Shown here in pieces: positions 17,648 to 53,770 of a stretch of 64,000 nucleotides of DNA. How positions within the stretch are numbered: position 1 is the first letter of the stretch; every line of letters starts with the position of its first letter. Below the pieces are notes generated by a model. It was not told where the DNA came from. It made no database searches and saw only the letters and a list, made by a program, of their open reading frames with translations. Made by a program: the position numbers and the translations under genes. The DNA comes from Rhizopus arrhizus (lineage: Eukaryota; Mucoromycota; Mucoromycetes; Mucorales; Rhizopodaceae), in NCBI GenBank assembly GCA_024220505.1, contig JAKZZE010000003.1, positions 248,001 to 312,000 of the forward strand, in the 5' to 3' direction.

Positions 17648-18031
17648 CTAAAGGCGAGCAAAGTCAACTTCTTTCCTTGCTGAACCTAGTTTATTACGTT
17701 TTGGGTCACGTCTAAAGATAGCTAAAATTGACGTTTTCCTGAAATGATTCCATTCGGTATGGAAGGATGTAGAAAAATCAAGTTCTACAAGTGTTTCAAG
17801 CTGAATAAAAGCATTCATATGGACTGATCGATATGCATCATAATCTTCGCTATGTAGCATTTGCTGCAAAGGCTCAGACTTGAACAAACGATAAGGGCGA
17901 AAGATTTTCAGATTCTCACAGCTTAGACACTTTAAAAGTTTACAAATTTCTTTTAAAAGAGGTAAAAGGCTCAATATTCTCTGACGATATATGAAATGTA
18001 TTGTTATAAAGGATTTTAGAATCTTTGCTTA
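17648..18031 (-). pseudogene. unrecognised open reading fragment abutting the Fanzor element
   Basis: On the minus strand this frame is open from the edge of the transposon (a TAA formed at the TA junction) to a stop at 17648, about 125 codons. It has ordinary amino-acid composition (for example HSEDYDAYRSVHMNAF and LGSARKEVDFARL). No start codon or partner exon could be identified on the other side of the element. It may be the last exon of a gene interrupted by the insertion, or chance. I do not recognise it. Confidence 0.3.
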
Positions 18032-18033
18032 TA

Positions 18034-18164
18034 GTGTTTTAATCTAAAATGAGACGATTTAATAAAATAAGTTAGACGGCTTAAAAGATAAAAGAGACTA
18101 ACGTCAGATTTTTTTGAGACAAGTGAGTAAAACAAATTAGACAATACAGGTTCTTTTTGTAGAC
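18034..18164 (+). repeat. left terminal inverted repeat of the Fanzor element
   Basis: It begins GTGTTTTAATCTAAAATGAG. It is the reverse complement of 20754-20873 joined to 22739-22749, with about 15 mismatches by eye and almost no gaps. It contains two related internal sub-repeats of the GTCTAA(C/T)TT(A/G)TTTTA type when read on the minus strand. Confidence 0.88.
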
Positions 18165-18248
18165 ACATGTTCAAAAAAATGTTGACGAGCAATCCCTTAT
18201 ATTATTGTTCAAAGACTTACACTATATCTGGGATTAATGCAGCGTTAA
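18034..18248 (-). ncRNA. candidate omega-RNA region (3' flank of Fanzor to element end)
   Basis: In OMEGA systems the guide RNA is transcribed from the 3' side of the nuclease gene, and its guide reads into the DNA just outside the element. Here that interval is the 215 nt between the Fanzor stop codon (18249) and the element edge, including the whole left TIR. The guide would then be read from 18033 downward into the flank. This placement is by analogy. No RNA signal or fold has been verified. Confidence 0.35.
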
Positions 18249-20389
18249 CTACAAAGGATTATTTTGTCTTTTCGTCGGTTGACTAGTACTAGCTGATGGT
18301 GATGACATATCCTTTCTTTTAGAGCCGGTGGAGAGAGGTTTTTTCGATCTGCAGAAACGTTCTGGTCTTTCACCATTTGCACGCAGGCTAAAAAGGATTT
18401 GTCTAAAGTTTAACGTAGCAGCCATATCACGATTCCAAAGACGACGAAGAGGGGCTTTATCAGTAGTTTCTATTGTGCTCATCACAGCCTTTAAACATTG
18501 TTGGTTTTTGCACCTGAGCAGAAATTATGAAAGCTTGTTATTTTTTTTTACTTGCATATAAAAAGCGCTTACCTTAAAAGGCCATGACGGTCTACAACGG
18601 GATACTTTTCTCTTTGATATGGTCTAGGATTCTGCACTTTTTTAAACGTTTCAAGTTCACCGTTTTGGCAAGAAGGGCACAGACTAGAAGTCCGGAACTC
18701 GTCAAGGAGGTACACCTGGAAGCCTTCTTTGGCTAACATTCTTCTCATTCCGACACCTCTAATGGGTTCATGATACTTTACCTTTCCTGCCGACCAATTA
18801 CCAAGTATTAAGATAGAATCATTCCCAAACCTCTCTCTAAGCTTCTTGGCTAACCGTTTGTCTGCTTGTTGCTGATTGATGAAACTTGAGAACTTCATTT
18901 TTCTAAAGGGTAAAAAACCACCGGCACCCTGATCTTCTGCTGCAGGGCGATCTTCATTTAAGTAGTACGCTTTCATGACATGGGTGACTTTGGCTCTTTC
19001 TTGAAGATACTCGATAAACTTGTCTTTGTTGACAGTTGAAGATTTGAAATGCGACAGGGAAAGCTCGGCTGCAATCACTTCGTCTCTCTTCAAGTTGTTC
19101 CTGAGCTTCCTGAATTTTCTAGATTTAGTTTCGATTGCTTTTTGGTTGCTTGTATATCGGTAAATCATTTTATTTTCAACAGTACTCTTTTCATGCATAC
19201 AGTAAAGCAAGTCTCGACGGCCAGGATCAATTAATACACATTTGCCAACACCAGCCAGCAACTCTTCTTTTCCCAACTTCTCAATGTACTGGAATTCTTC
19301 TGCTTTAATAGACTTTGGCTTTCCACCACTGCTGCCACCTTTCTTCATTGTATCGTAGCTTTGCTTTAACACCGACACACCTACGCCATCTGTGTATATC
19401 GTACCTCTAAACTTCATGATCCTTCTTTCTCCTTGTGGTTTCATCGCTTTTGATCTAACATCAAGAACGGCTCCCCATACTACTTCTTTATCCAAGTGGC
19501 TGATGATGGAATTCTTCAAGATTTGAGTATTTAAAATATATGTATCAATCGTCATATACGATGGTATGAAGCCCTTTCTTAATGGAAAGCAATTGAATGA
19601 TTTGTTTTGAAGCGCTTCGCACATGCTTGATAGTCTATAGTACGCTTTTATGTGCTTGAGAGGGTTAGCTTTGCAGTCGTAATAGATCGAGCCTTTCGCA
19701 AATCGATAATCCGTCGAATACGAGTCAAAAAGATTACGGATTTTATCTAAATCATTTGAGGAGAAAAACTCTTTGGGAACATCTTCAATGCTCCTTGACG
19801 ATATAGCCAACTTGACCTTGCTTATCTGCTCTGTTATTGTCTTTATAGTTGCCACAATCTCCTTCTCTGTTCCCTCGTTTTTCTTCATCTCGCTTTTCAG
19901 CGCCTTGATTCTTTCGTTCTTCTTTAAGAGCAAGTTAAGAAACATTCGAACTTTGTTTCCGAATTGAACCTTGACCCCATTCAGATAAGCAGTAACGATC
20001 TTTACCATTTCATAAGAGGCTATCTGATGAGCATACTTCATATTAATTGGCTCGTACGAACAGCACTGAAAGTACTGGTGTCGATAGTTGAGTACTAGCC
20101 CTTTGTAAGTTCTTGATTTTGTCGAAGCTTTCTGCTTGTCTGGTTTGTAGTTTTTGAGGAGTGACAAAAAGACTTCTTTAAAAAAGTCAACATTAATGAA
20201 ATCCTCCAAGGGAAACGCAGGGTTATTTTCTAGTTCATGACTAAAGATGTACTTCAAAAAGGAGAATGTATGTAACACGAGGGTATGAACATTAGCTACA
20301 AGCGTCTTGAGTAGCGGAATATATTGTGGCTTCCACCCAATACCAGCGATTGAACTTTTAACTGTTATGATTTTTAGAGGCGGTTCCAT
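18249..20389 (-). CDS. Fanzor: Fanzor, eukaryotic TnpB-like RNA-guided DNA endonuclease
   Basis: Exons 18573-20389 and 18249-18513 join in phase (58/57-nt intron with GTAAGC and CTCAG ends) to about 693 aa. Residues 1-380 are the variable N-terminal recognition part, with a Lys-rich coiled region near 150-195. RuvC-I is VLIDPGRRDLLY (Asp388). The RuvC-II block is LILGNWSAGK (526-535), which lacks the TnpB glutamate. A conserved-looking Glu in LLDEFRTSSLCPSC (E564) may replace it, as described for Fanzors. A zinc knuckle (CPSC 571-574 and CKNQQC 607-612) is split by the intron. RuvC-III is LWNRDMAATLNF (Asp635). The tail is basic and Ser-rich (TGSKRKDM), a possible nuclear signal. The gene is complete with no internal stops. 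Role: programmable DNA cleavage supporting its transposon. Confidence 0.92.
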
Positions 20390-20753
20390 AAAGAAAAATA
20401 AAAGATAAATTGACAGTGTTTTTTATTACTGTTGTCATTTGTGCTGTCATTGTCTTTTGACAACATATTGTCATTGATAGAATGGAGTTAGAACAATGAA
20501 ACAATTCTATCTATAATCTTATACTATATGATATGATGAATAATGATCAAATAGTTCAGTGCTTCATAACATAATGTCTCGATGATGAATTATAAACTCT
20601 GTCCCTCTTTGACATTATGAAGAAAGTGCTTATACTGTTGCCATTTCAGATACAGCACTACAAAGCTAATGATATGTGTGCATACAGCCAGTTGCTCGAT
20701 TACATTGCACTCCACAGTAAAAGGTGGAGAATGATAGTATGATAAAAAAAATC

Positions 20754-20873
20754 GTCTACAAAAGGAATCTGCATTGTCTAATTTGTTTTGTTTACTTGTC
20801 TCAAAAAAATTTGACGTTCGTCTCTTTTACCTTTTAAAGTGTCTAATTTATTTTATTAAATCGTTTTATTTTA
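20754..20873 (-). repeat. right terminal inverted repeat of the Fanzor element (inner 120 bp)
   Basis: It starts GTCTACAAAAGGAATCTGC and runs to the LINE insertion point. The outermost 11 bp of this repeat (GATTAAAACAC) lie beyond the LINE at 22739-22749. Together they mirror 18034-18164. Confidence 0.88.
20859..20873. repeat. target-site duplication of the nested LINE, left copy
   Basis: The 15-bp word AATCGTTTTATTTTA is repeated exactly at 22724-22738. The left TIR shows the undisturbed counterpart of the same site in inverted form (AATCGTCTCATTTTA). Confidence 0.9.
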
Positions 20874-20914
20874 TTTTATTTTTTTTGTAAAATAAGTTAT
20901 TTTATTTAACTTGG

Positions 20915-20941
20915 AGTCACACATCGCGGAGTGGTGTGACT
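20915..20941 (-). repeat. hairpin near the LINE 3' end
   Basis: An 8-bp perfect stem (AGTCACAC with GTGTGACT) encloses an 11-nt loop, about 35 nt from the A-rich tail. Such 3' UTR stem-loops can be the feature recognised by the element's own reverse transcriptase. The function here is inference. Confidence 0.6.
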
Positions 20942-21023
20942 AGATTATTATTCAATGAGTAAATCTGGAATATAAGTATCATAGAGAAATAGTATTATCG
21001 AAACGGAAAGGAAACTAGTGTAA

Positions 21024-22723
21024 TTATTCGATCAAAGGATGTTCATTTGTAAGTGTAGAGACTTGTGAGATAATTTTGGAGATGATTAGATTGGGTTGAT
21101 AAGGAACGTTGTGGATGACGAATTGCCAATGGAAGTACCATATGTACCATAATGAAGTAGACACAACTATGAATAGTTGTTGGCGCAAATGACGAGGGAA
21201 GCAATCTGGAGGTTTGAGAAAACGAAGTAGCTGCCATATTGATTCGGATTGCAGATTGAAGTCAGGATAGAATTTGTGAAATATAGATTTCCAAATTGAG
21301 TATTTGATTGAACAAAAGATCAAAAAGTGTTCCATTGTTTCTTCGTGATCTTGACATAATCGACATTTATTGGAATCAGTTGTTTGAATATTGTGTAAGT
21401 AGGACATCGTGGGTAGCTTAAAGTTAAGTACCCTATACCACACTGTACGTGCTTGAAGGAGCATACTTGTTCTCCAAAACAACTTTAGACGAACTTTGGG
21501 GATATTGACCTTGGATTGATAGTGGGAGAAGCTTACTATTTGTCTGAATTTAGATGACGTGAATTCCTGCCATATTTGTTGATTGCGGAATTGTTGAGAA
21601 AGAGTGTCTGCCGTAAGGTCATCCTCTATGACTGGTGGTTCAGTCAGAATGTATTTCCATAGGTACGGCTGTATCCTTATTGTTCTATGTTGTAAAATGT
21701 CTTTGTACAAACGGTAGCACAATCCAGGTTTAATTGCATATTCGCCTCTGACTCTTATCCGTAGTCGATTAATAGTATCATCATAGATGAAGAAATGGGA
21801 CGCTAGGAATTTTGGGTGTCGTATGAGCCAATGAGAGTCAGGAATCGAGATGAAAAGTTTTGCGAGTGGTAGTAGTAATAGATTTGAGAGAGACAAGGCC
21901 GAGAAGTCAGGTTCTAGAGAGAAATGATCAAAAGCTTTATATATGGAATGCATGATTGATAACGGTTGATTGAGATCATGTTTCCTGAGGGCCGGTACAA
22001 AAAGAGAGATACTATAAAAACGATCATTACCAGCTATTAGAGATAAATGATGCTTAATGGTAGACTGAACCAAAGAGGGATAATTGGTATTATTAAAGAT
22101 ATGACGAAGATGTCGAATCTGTAGTACTATATGTTGTAACTGAGGATTTAAAACACCTAAACCACCTTGAGCAATTGGTAGGCATAGTTGATCAAAGGAT
22201 ATCAGCGGCCGTTTATGCTGCCATACAAAAGCATATATAATTTTTTTCAATTCTGTGAAAATGGCCTGCGTTGGATGTAGCAATCTGAGACAATACCATA
22301 TTTTGGTCAAGATCAGAGTGTTCATGATTGTTGCGCGTCCTCGTAGTGAAATCTGGCGCTGTGAATATATATGTACTTGATCTTTCACCTTTGCTATCAA
22401 TTGGTCCTGTAAAAAACTTCGCTGAGCAGTAGTGAACATTATGCGATAACCGAGGTATCTAAATGGTTCGGATGACCTATCAGTATGATATACTGAGATC
22501 TTTTGTTGTAGTAAATATGTTTTCCATATTTCATTCGGGTATCCGCTCAAAGCAAAAGCTTCTGTCTTTTCTTGATTGAACTTGGCATTAGAGACCAATG
22601 AGTACCGATTTAAATGATGGTGTAATCGATTATAGTCGGACACACTATCTACTATGATGCATATATCATCTGCATATGCTAAGGTCTTCACACGATGTTC
22701 GATACCTGTGTTGACATATCTGT
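21024..22723 (-). CDS. partial LINE reverse transcriptase (C-terminal part)
   Basis: The frame is open from the truncated 5' edge for about 565 codons. It begins TGIEHRVKTLAYADDICII, so the catalytic Asp-Asp is at the very start and the fingers and first palm motifs are absent. Thumb-like QISLRGRATIMNTLILTKIW and a C-terminal RVT zinc-binding knuckle (CRLCQDHEETMEHFLIFC) follow. This knuckle is the same domain as in the older fragment near 2200. The copy cannot encode a working enzyme because it lacks the endonuclease and most of the palm. Start: no genuine Met; the frame simply enters from the truncation point. Confidence 0.88.
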
Positions 22724-22738
22724 AATCGTTTTATTTTA
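22724..22738. repeat. target-site duplication of the nested LINE, right copy
   Basis: It is identical to 20859-20873. Directly after it the outer end of the Fanzor TIR resumes (GATTAAAACAC, 22739-22749). Confidence 0.9.
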
Positions 22739-22751
22739 GATTAAAACACTA

Positions 22752-23092
22752 TATTAAATGTAAATTGGCACCTAACTATATTTAAAGGCCGCAAGTAGAT
22801 TATCTAAAAATGCACCAATTAAATACAGAAAAGGTTTGTAAGCTTGTTTTTCTGTAAACAAAATCATAGTGTTTATGCAGAAAGTATACAAGTATAGATA
22901 ATGCACAAAAGAGGGGGGCTATTTGAACGGGATACGCTCTACTACCAAAAATGGTATTTCTTAAACGTTAGTCGCACTACACACCACTATGACGTTACAC
23001 TTAATGCGTGTGACGAATGAAGAGAAAGCAATTTAAAGACCTTTTTTTTTCTCTCTCTTTTTTTTTTCGTTTGATTTTTTGTATTGGCAAAT
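22752..23092. other. upstream region of the Mg2+ transporter gene
   Basis: These 341 bp lie between the Fanzor element edge and the next start codon. They end in a T/C-rich run (23041-23069), typical just before fungal start sites. No other feature was seen. Confidence 0.4.
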
Positions 23093-38879: not shown

Positions 38880-41800
38880 TTATCGTCTACCCTTTCTCTT
38901 AATATACACCATGAATAAGAACGCAAAAATATTAAATATAAAGAAAGCAAATAAAATGCCAAAGTTTCTCCATTTGTGAGCAGCATTCCATCCCATGTTA
39001 GTTTCATAGTATTCGGCTCCAGACTTGTAAGTACAGTATCCACATTGTTCGGGTTGTGTAGCTTCAGGATTGGCGAGATAACCAGGTGATCCGTTTGCAA
39101 AGAAGTTTGCGGTATATTCACCACAGGTTTGGCCGGGTGGAGGTGTGAATCGAAGAAGGTCCTCATCGGTACAGTTGACTACAAGATCCTCCATTTCGTT
39201 CACAATCAAACCTTCAACGTAATAGTGGAATGGATCCAGCCAATACATCCAGGAACTCCAAAATCTCGGTAAATCCTTGGGGAATTGCATCATACCACTG
39301 AACAAGATGAGGATCGTGACAATAAGAGGATTCAACACGGCAGCCATTGTGGGAATTTCGGTGATGGAGGCAATGACAAAACCAAGTGTGACAGCCCAAG
39401 AGATCATGACAGAAAAAAGAATGTAAAAGTAACCACCTGCTTCAGGCGTATTCTTCATGCCAATCGTCCAGTAGAATCCAAACGTGAAAACAGCAGAGAA
39501 GAAAAGAACATAGGGGATCTCAACCAAGACGGCCGAAAGACCCCAGGTTACCCAACTGTAATATCTAGATGCGTATTCCTTTCTAAAGAACACTCGTTCG
39601 GTCATGAATTTTGGTTGAGCGAGAATGATCATAGTAAAGGCCATGATGAAAGTACTAAAGAAAGCAAGCACTTTGTTTTGCAGATCAGAAGAAGAAGAGC
39701 TAAGCTTCCAGAAAGTGAAACCAGTAAGCAAAGCGGTGAAGACAATGTTGAGGAAACGGCCCACGTTATAGTCAGGAGAACGCCAATAGGCCAGTGACAT
39801 TCGACCAAACACCAAGCGGAACTGAGTAAAGTAGGAAGCAGAGTATGTTTGAGCAGAACGTGTAGGATTCTTGATAGCAGTAGCACCAATTTCATTCAGT
39901 TCATCATCCAATTCTTTTGCTTGATATGATTCTCTCCAAACTTCAGCCCAATCTCTCTTGACCTTTCCTGCAGTACCGGCACCAACCACTTCAAGAATGT
40001 ATTCAGCAGGGTTAGCATCAGGGGAGCATTGGGGACCGCCGTTCGATTCAAAGTAATCAATCATCGTACGAGCATCTTTACCAATTTCACCATAGTAGGC
40101 AGTACGACCACCACGTACGAGCAGCAAGAGGTGGTCAAAGTGCTCAAACAAGATAGAAGAGGGCTGATGGATAGTACAGAGCACGGGCCAACCAGCATCT
40201 GCCAATTTTCTGATGAAGCGAATGATATTGTAAGAACTTTGAGCATCAAGACCCGAGGTAGGTTCATCCAAGAAGAGCAACTGGGGCTTTCCGACCAGTT
40301 CCATAGCAATCGTCAAACGCTTACGTTCTTCAACCGATATACCAAACCCACTTTCGACAGCTCCGATTTGAGCATCTGCAATATCATCCATTTCTAAGAG
40401 CTGAATGATTTGTTCAACATATTCCTTCTTTTCCTTCAGGGGCACATCAGCAGACTGACGCAACTGAGCAGAGAAATAGAGAGATTCACGTACGGTCACC
40501 ATGGGTTGATGGATATCCATTTGTTCACAGTAACCTGTGATTCTCTCGAAATCATTCATCAAGGCTTCACCATTCAAAAAGATGTCCCCTTTGACAACAC
40601 CGATTGTCTTTCGACGAGCCAGCACGTCCAATAAGGTTGTTTTACCAGCACCACTAGAGCCCATCAAGGCAGTCAAATGACCAGGCTTCACGATACCGCT
40701 GATATTGTTCAGTAATTGAAGTTCACCCCCTTTGATAGGTACAGTGTAGTTCACATTGTGCCATGAGAACGTGGTACCGGTAGAGATACTATCCATGTTT
40801 TCAGTCACCTCGTTTTGTCTTTTGCGTCGTTCGCTTTCTTCTTCAGCCGTACGTGGCTTCGGTGCCTTTCCGGGAATATAAAGCTTAGTCAAGGTGGATG
40901 ACTTGTTCAATTTGACGTATTCCATTGATAAGGCAGTCAAGGCTGTAAACAAGATGAAAAAGGCAACAATGACAACAAAGTCGGGAGCCCAGAGATAACT
41001 TGGATTATAGGAAAGTGCTTGATGAAGATAGTCATCGCCCACAACAAAGGGTTGACCGGGTACACCACCTTTCATAGTACACACTTTATAAGCCCAATCG
41101 TCATAGCCAGGACCGGAAGGAATAGCATTTCCTACACCTTCACAAGAATAGATTTGACCCGACATTTCATTCGACAAAAGTGCTTGGTATGCATAAGATA
41201 TAGGGTTAATGTAGCGAATCCAGAACAACCAAGGGTGCATTTTTGTAAAGGGAATCATATAACCGGTATAGATGACGCAGGCGATCAGCAAGACACTTGT
41301 GACCTGAGTGGCCAAGAAGAAGCTAGACGTGATGGATCCAAAAAGACGAAAGAAACCTGTCATGGCCATACTCAGGAAGAATAAGGTAATAAAAGACGTA
41401 AAGAATCTTCCGGCAGATAAGTTGAGACCCATCATAAAGTAGCAAATGATTTCATACAAGAAAACTAAGTGTTGTGAAAACATGAGATAAAAATAAAACT
41501 AGAGTCATGAACCAAACTTACCTTGAGCAAGGGTGTATGGGATATCCATCACAACTTGAGCAACATAAAATGCAGAAGGTCGATACAGAGCATATTGTTT
41601 ATGCTTTTCAAGAATTGGACGTCCCATCAAAAAGCTGATAAGTTCCGATTGAGACATGAAGGTATTATAGACTGCCAAAAAGAAGAGAGCGCCACCACGA
41701 GAGAAGGCACCAGAGCCAGAAAGAGGAATTAATAAGAAACAAGAGGATGTGATTAAGCTTTGGGCGAGAACGGTACCATATCTTGAAATGATGGCATCCT

Positions 41801-43408
41801 TATCTTTAATTAACAGATGGTGCTGACGAATGGTGAGTGCCTTCACTTGCTGATAGAAGGATGCAATGTAAGGATTGCTTTTGGGAGCACGCTTTTGATG
41901 TTCTTCGGTTATAGCATCTTCAAATTCTTTTACTTTGTTTACTTGATTCACTTCTTCTTCATAGTGTTCAAAGTCTCTCAACATCTGCTGATAAATGTCA
42001 GATTCATAATATTTCTTTTGAAATTCAGATCCATGCGCTGGTGCACTGTTTTCAAATCCAGGTTTATATTCACGTTCAAGAGGATTACAGAGACCCGTCA
42101 AGAAATCCGGAATGGACTTTCTTGGTGCACAGTAAAAGCCAAGGTTTTCAAAGTATTGTTTTGCTTGACCGATCGGACCAAAGTATAAGACATAACCTTC
42201 ATCTAAAAGAAGTAATTTGTCAAAGACGTTGAAGATGCTGTTGGATGCTTGATAGAGTGTTGCGATAGTTGTCGTCTTGAAAATGTCTGTTGTGATTCTT
42301 AATGATTTTACATAGTCTAAGGCAGAGGCTGCGTCCAATCCACGAGTAGAGCAATCCCAGCAATTGATCGTGCTCCTGGTCGTCATTTGTTCAGCGATAG
42401 ACAGACGCTTGCGTTCACCGCCTGATAAACCACGAATAAAGGCGTTACCGACCATGGTGCCCATCTGTTTCTTGAGACCCAGCATGCTGCCGAGCAAATA
42501 CAAAATGCGATCTACAAAGTCCGTCTTGGATTCGCCTGGAACTCTTTTGCCAGGTGTCTTGGTTCTGAGAGCGAATTGAAGTGTTTGTTTTGTAGTCAAG
42601 GTTGGATAATGTTGATCTTCTTCTTCATTATAACACACTTGTCCACGGTATCTCTTGGCGAATGTTTCTGGATCAATGCCACCATAATTGACTTCACCAC
42701 CAATGTGTGTATAGGATTCTCTCAGGTTGGCAATCACTTTCAAAAAGGAGGAACAGCCAGCACCGGGACGACCGAGGACGAGCAGCATTTCACCTTCTCT
42801 GCAGCAACCTGTCAAGTTTTGAAGGATGATTCTTTTACTGTTCGTATTGGATTTGAACAATCTCCAGAAAGCTAAGGAATCAGCAATATAACTAAATAAG
42901 GTTGGAATCGTATAAGCATCAGCGCCAAGACCCTATTGGAAAAATAATGTCAGTCAATTTCCTTTGCGTTTTTATTTGTAATCAAGTCATACCTCAACGC
43001 GGAGATCTTTCCAAGAAACACCGAGATTTTTGCGCTTATGGCCATTCTTTTCTTCTTCTGAATGCATTCCATGTAAAAACTCACTTAGATCGAAATCATC
43101 TTCGTCAGCTTTTCCTTCTTCAGCTTTGGATGCTGACGTTCGGTGACTTTTACGACTGAGTTCTTTGCGAAGTTCTTCATACTCATTTTTAGCCTCTGTT
43201 ATAAGACAGGTCAGAAACAATTGAATAGATACAAATTTTATTCTAAATTACCTTCTATATCAATCTGATTTCCATCCGTTTCTCCAAAAGTATCAAGATT
43301 ACCATACTGCTTCTCGGTATACGTGTCTGCAGAACTGATGGACGGATCAGCAGGCTTTGAGTCCATCAGCTGTGTGTTTCCTACTTTCTCTTCAATTGTA
43401 TTATTCAT
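38880..43408 (-). CDS. PDR-type (ABCG full-size) ABC transporter
   Basis: Exons 43252-43408, 42993-43195, 41522-42932 and 38880-41464 join in phase to about 1451 aa, the normal size for Pdr5/Cdr1-class pumps. The layout is NBD1-TMD1-NBD2-TMD2. NBD1 has the fungal degenerate Walker A (GRPGAGCSSFLKVIA), signature GLSGGERKRLSIAE and Walker B region NCWDCSTRGLDAAS. NBD2 has canonical Walker A (GSSGAGKTTLLDVLARR), an atypical signature (GISVEERKRLTIAMEL) and LLFLDEPTSGLDAQSS. This asymmetric ATPase pair is typical of PDR pumps. The N-terminus is long, acidic and hydrophilic. It is probably a plasma-membrane exporter of hydrophobic drugs or lipids. The sequence does not reveal substrate or regulation. 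Confidence 0.95.

Positions 43409-49765: not shown

Positions 49766-53770
<4,005 letters not shown>

Follow-up and report, generated by a model that had tools for sequence, protein, structure and literature searches.

The window, a 64,000-nucleotide stretch of Rhizopus arrhizus DNA (G000:C23:248001-312000) from a genome of 50.3 Mb in 41 contigs, carries on its minus strand a Fanzor1 gene of 693 residues plus stop (20389..18249), which is read from two in-phase exons with zero internal stops. Exon 1 (18573..20389; 1817 nt, or 605 codons and two bases of the next) encodes D388, E564 and CPSC, and exon 2 (18249..18513; 265 nt) supplies CKNQQC, NRDMAATLN with D635, and the stop; the predicted phase 2 intron between them (18514..18572; 59 nt, GT..AG, GTAAGC...CTCAG) would separate the CPSC half of the zinc finger from the CKNQQC half. 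Although eight alternative GT..AG pairs with an open frame were listed, we picked the 59-nt intron because an annotated R. arrhizus protein, P0002 (31 member sequences), has the identical junction, HGLLR/CKNQQC. P0002 matches exon 1 of the window gene at 100% identity over 81%, and its annotated model starts inside the window frame. The seven other young full-length copies in the genome (L002-L008) likewise have GT..AG at this place, spanning 59 nt in six and 60 nt in one. A first-pass annotation of this DNA had described a full-length Fanzor gene with one intron splitting the zinc knuckle and with no internal stops or frameshifts, and this description holds over both joined exons, with sequence, structure and motif tests in agreement. 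That annotation mentioned neither transposon ends, nor the LINE in the right inverted repeat, nor other copies of the gene. Elsewhere in the window are adjacent minus-strand frames matching ABC transporters (38880-42860, the larger of PDR/CDR type) and a Thi4 family gene (52657-53577).

All of the motifs named in that annotation (IDPGRRD, GNWS, DEFRTS, CPSC, CKNQQC and NRDMAATLN) were found. RuvC-I has D388 within DPG and RuvC-III has D635; the canonical RuvC-II glutamate is missing, with GNWS at 530-533, and an alternative glutamate, E564, lies in DEFRTS, six residues separating it from C571. DPG at RuvC-I is given as a Fanzor1 criterion in the portion of PMC10711439 available to us, and an alternative glutamate at this spacing is a further Fanzor1 trait. 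The C4 zinc finger consists of C571, C574, C607 and C612 (CPSC 571-574, CKNQQC 607-612), and the Fanzor1 motif presented in the excerpted text of PMC3627910, namely [TS][TS]xx, a C4 zinc finger and RD within 5-50 residues, is present as T567-S568, these four cysteines and R634-D635. When exon 1 alone was compared with PDB by phmmer, only two distinct sequences were returned up to an E of 10, PpFz1 of Parasitella parasitica (E = 5e-150, 504 bits) and SpuFz1 of Spizellomyces punctatus (3e-43, 151 bits); these values exclude a chance resemblance and, as the first-pass annotation had proposed to check by profile search, put the protein with proven Fanzor1 enzymes. Pfam yielded a sub-threshold Cas12f1-like match only (E 0.048). 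A structure model of P0002 (577 residues, without the N-terminus of the window protein; mean pLDDT 70, pTM 0.53) agrees in fold, its best six Foldseek matches being the PpFz1 and SpuFz1 structures, with Cas12f next. PpFz1 (PDB 9cf0-9cf3) is thus the closest solved relative in both sequence and structure, with homology over most of the length and the same layout of RuvC and zinc finger, whereas SpuFz1 (8gkh) shares the Fanzor1 fold and the D-E-D triad but is distant (151 vs 504 bits). Related proteins, among 79 matches from 7,993 candidates scored, come from R. delemar, R. microsporus, Gilbertella, Pilaira, Helicostylum, Thamnidium and Syncephalis. The window gene is a real, intact Fanzor1 of a kind already known, and its enzyme may plausibly be active.

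The gene lies within an element of Tc1/mariner type (18030-22753), in which Fanzor1 is enclosed by inverted repeats with TA duplications; the arms are about 125-135 bp long and 86% complementary, and the ends read TA-YAGTGTTTTAATC...GATTAAAACACTR-TA. At the Fanzor 3' end is the left terminal inverted repeat (18032..18164, minus strand), where the 3' part of a putative omega-RNA would be expected. The TA target-site duplication lies beyond it at 18030..18031, and the first 20 nt past this duplication (18010..18029, minus strand) would form the guide if the geometry outlined in the part of PMC10711439 consulted applies here. At the Fanzor 5' end, the inner part of the right terminal inverted repeat occupies 20754..20873 (plus strand), after which a minus-strand LINE (20874..22723; RVT_1 and zf-RVT matches) intervenes, flanked by the 15-bp target-site duplication AATCGTTTTATTTTA (22724..22738, the other copy at 20859-20873); past the LINE, the terminal 13 bp of the repeat, GATTAAAACACTA, resume (22739..22751, plus strand). 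The LINE is evidently 5'-truncated, its match to the reverse transcriptase profile being limited to the final part of that profile. The TA duplication on the Fanzor 5' side (22752..22753) reads with its flank ..TTTAA-TA in Fanzor orientation, for a predicted TAM of ATA. Putative omega-RNA ends of 75-120 nt folded no better than shuffles in 6/6 sequences, and the ends examined are very alike.

No transposase was found in 18030-22753, where every frame of at least 150 aa belongs either to Fanzor exon 1 or to the inserted LINE, and the element is therefore Fanzor-only and non-autonomous. The terminal 28 bp of the ancestral-type end share 24/28 bases with one end of L067, a mariner with an open 456-aa frame and a DDE_3 match, and 23/28 with one end of L069, in which the transposase frame is split in two; in neither case did the stretch examined contain the opposite end when up to 5 substitutions were allowed. 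Because these 28 bp resemble mariner ends, the element is likely mobilised in trans by a mariner transposase, as far as the sequences of the ends can tell. The similarity of the inverted repeats to mariners is confined to the terminal ~28 bp. A search for an autonomous partner with the whole 135-bp repeat gave at least 41 matches, all at already matched places (40 of 42 candidates scored), and four more loci with similar ends (L059-L062) had no transposase-like frame, as judged by eye. In being Fanzor-only, with terminal inverted repeats and TA duplications, the window element is like the mariner-type Fanzor1 elements of Bao and Jurka (2013; PMC3627910, seen in part), who report four Fanzor1 families from Rhizopus oryzae, of which ROr-4 is of MuDr type.

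Compared with the genome, the element DNA gave 84 matching pieces, a figure that is not a copy number because it includes cross-matches between the arms. Exon 1 is matched from end to end at 98-100% by eight copies, seven of which have no stop there; the catalytic D, E and D are present in 8/8, and after splicing the reading frame runs uninterrupted in the same 7/8 (one a codon shorter). Two further full-length matches to exon 1, at 85% and 71%, contain stops, and older copies (~82-91% identical DNA) have both stops and deletions. With the window copy as the reference in every pair, so that pairs are not independent, dN/dS was below 1 in 16/16 comparisons (0.13-0.51): the seven young copies, which differ from the window copy by 8-17 changes apiece, gave 0.13-0.47, and the nine older ones, all with one stop or more, gave 0.37-0.51. 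Six near-identical copies (L002-L006 and L008, on C12, C2, C23, C3, C9 and C20 of G000) have in common a LINE 3' end that abuts the outer edge of the right inverted repeat (CACTATA joined to TTATCC), with their other flanks all different. By eye, this LINE end has a poly-A of varying length in L002-L004, where no LINE target duplication was found, and a small element with inverted repeats follows it in L005, L006 and L008; of the three origins considered for the shared flank, namely one-ended transposition, retrotransposition of the LINE and nested insertion, none fits all six. Another LINE 3' end adjoins the right inverted repeat of L007 (G000:C23:646507-652336), whose right end looks older while its left end and gene look young, and L007 is possibly a product of gene conversion.

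The same genome harbors a second Fanzor family (L066), with at least 49 matching pieces (40 of 96 candidates scored), which is larger than the window family and about 42% identical to it. Its exon 1 matches PpFz1 throughout (1,046 bits), making it nearer to PpFz1 than the window protein is, and the match includes a stretch of ~105 PpFz1 residues in place of which the window protein has ~10 (between residues 481 and 491). We interpret this stretch as the FRI insertion in RuvC that binds cyclophilin, in which case the second family has the FRI stretch of ~100 residues and the window protein lacks it; in the part of PMC11423790 at hand, FRI was found in Parasitella and Rhizopus only. In the one copy of the second family examined, the intron follows NGLLR, at the same place and in the same phase as in the window gene. 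Since position and phase are common to both families, the intron most simply predates their split, and the suggestion in the first-pass annotation that it marks host adaptation after transfer is not supported. Elements of the second family end in CACTG followed by TA, the TA being present at 17/17 3' ends; the two ends of their inverted repeats differ by a few bases, and frames resembling pieces of a mariner transposase were seen by eye 5' of the Fanzor. Two other elements (G000 C37:1597227-1602618 and C5:1248200-1252426) have the inverted repeat of this family with the identical end type on both sides, and are perhaps its Fanzor-less parents.

Reading all flanks in Fanzor orientation, with the 3' side mirrored, we found that insertion sites differ between the two sides of the element. 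Among flanks of the second family (all but one of the 35 listed 5'-type ends, and 23 3'-type ends that are part of the listing), TTA precedes the 5' TA at 19/34 sites, giving TTA-TA, compared with 1/23 on the 3' side (Fisher 4.6e-5); on the 5' side, T occurs 25 times at -3, T 27 times at -2 and A 25 times at -1, and position -4 is mixed. The window family, in which six composite copies with a common 5' flank were counted as one site, one end with an extra base (L007) was aligned by eye, and L004, L013, L021, L024, L026, L027 and L028 were left out of the 3' count (end truncated or ambiguous), shows TTA at 7/11 5' sides vs 3/15 3' sides (p 0.043), and TTA or TAA at 10/11 vs 3/15 (p 0.00098). 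TTA stands at 2.9% of TA sites in the window as background, and the window copy itself has TAA-TA, not TTA-TA, on its 5' side. In a Fanzor-less mariner with a 462-aa transposase, ten copies of which served as a control (one with the same flank on both sides), TTA was found at 0/10 and 0/10. A single A before the TA is weak as a motif: it occurs at 10/11 5' sides and 5/15 3' sides in the window family and at 6/10 5' sides of the control, and in the second family it fails to distinguish one side from the other (25/34 vs 11/23, p 0.057). The choice of motif and classes was made in part with the data already in view, for one genome and with small numbers for the window family and the same-end class.

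Grouping second-family 5' ends by their partner end, from listed coordinates only, gave TTA at 8/9 where Fanzor sequence was seen, 6/8 where the partner was of the Fanzor 3' type, 0/4 ends in the two elements whose ends are both of one type, and 5/13 with no partner within 7 kb. Fanzor-type elements thus differ from the same-end class (14/17 vs 0/4, p 0.006), under a post hoc grouping in which 8 of these 17 owe their class to the partner end alone, with no Fanzor sequence seen in them. The one-sided site motif in two Fanzor families is a new observation and of greater interest than the gene itself; the titles and abstract beginnings listed by our literature searches mention no insertion-site TAM footprint for Fanzor, and one may still be in print.

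The asymmetry could arise without any action of the Fanzor, if a mariner transposase with unequal ends preferred TTA on one side of its target and the Fanzor were a passenger. A transposase could distinguish the slightly different ends of second-family elements, and these same elements contain the transposase-like frames seen by eye. Target preferences of Tc1/mariner elements are not known to be asymmetric, however; in young copies of the window family the terminal 28 bp of both ends differ by only 2 bases and the asymmetry is still there, and neither the same-end elements (0/4 ends) nor the different, Fanzor-less mariner (0/20 flanks) show TTA. We therefore hold a preference of the transposase to be unlikely, if a serious competitor. 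That TTA is simply a carried part of the element's 5' end, rather than host DNA, would suit how common it is directly adjoining that end, but TTA is missing from 15/34 copies, -4 is mixed, the other end abuts TA in every second-family case counted, and the window family has a similar motif despite a different inverted repeat, leaving this explanation with little probability.

The stops and deletions of the older copies would be expected if the element were a decaying passenger whose Fanzor is currently functionless; yet 7/8 young full-length copies are intact with their catalytic residues, every dN/dS value is below 1, and related proteins occur throughout Mucorales, and we consider current loss of function improbable, though marginally less so than a carried TTA. 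That the host has domesticated the gene for a function in its own cells, as the presence of an intron might hint, is the most remote of these explanations, given near-identical copies with transposon ends at many sites and an intron position common to a second repetitive family.

We favor, with a probability of roughly 0.6, a reading in which a Fanzor-only, mariner-type element is mobilised in trans and its Fanzor cuts uninserted alleles at TTA-TA sites. A mariner transposase supplied from elsewhere would act on the terminal inverted repeats and move the element, and the Fanzor would then take as its guide the host DNA right behind the 3' TA. Alleles still without the insertion would be cleaved where TTA-TA, containing an ATN TAM, adjoins the guide, and the occupied chromosome would serve in repair or out-compete the cut one, such that the element is kept and multiplied. 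Excision of a mariner leaves a footprint that would place different bases ahead of the guide, and for this reason the targets would be uninserted alleles rather than excision scars. As cutting would need a TAM, insertions at TAM-bearing sites and in the right orientation would be those that persist. In a mould with many nuclei per cytoplasm, cutting may also act from nucleus to nucleus.

This arrangement corresponds to the geometry of TnpB-type systems, in which, in the text of PMC10711439 available, the element is immediately preceded by the TAM and immediately followed by the guide. TTA with the TA duplication supplies ATA, so that the pre-insertion site would read TAM-guide and be cuttable in principle, and the motif includes ATN, the TAM measured for PpFz1 (5'-ATN; PMC11423790, in part); at the 9/34 second-family sites without A at -1 there is accordingly no ATN. 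The TAM of SpuFz1 is given as CATA (PMC10432273, in part). Helitron-type Fanzor elements of Chlamydomonas are described as inserting at T-rich sites, with no site motif given for mariner-type elements in the portion of PMC3627910 seen. TnpB of IS200/IS605 has been reported to act as a drive nuclease on plasmids without the IS, with a proposed mode in which its guide records the insertion site and copies devoid of the insertion are cut (PMC11870625, in part). By analogy, we think the chances of drive-like action in the elements described here slightly better than even, with the difference that the partner of TnpB is IS200/IS605 and that of Fanzor would be a eukaryotic cut-and-paste transposon duplicating TA.

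Little is known of the biological function of Fanzors, for which a proliferative advantage has been suggested (PMC10711439, from the part consulted). More generally, there is an even chance that Fanzor serves eukaryotic cut-and-paste mariner elements as an RNA-guided nuclease for retention or drive, possibly operating between nuclei, in which only insertions that spell the TAM (TTATA) are enforceable and surviving sites come to record it. Because a single genome has Fanzors with and without the putative FRI stretch, the role of FRI could be compared between them. If one flank of insertion sites does preserve the TAM, genomes would show what a Fanzor targets biologically and would allow its TAM to be predicted with no need of a screen, and a direct test of the drive hypothesis would become possible.
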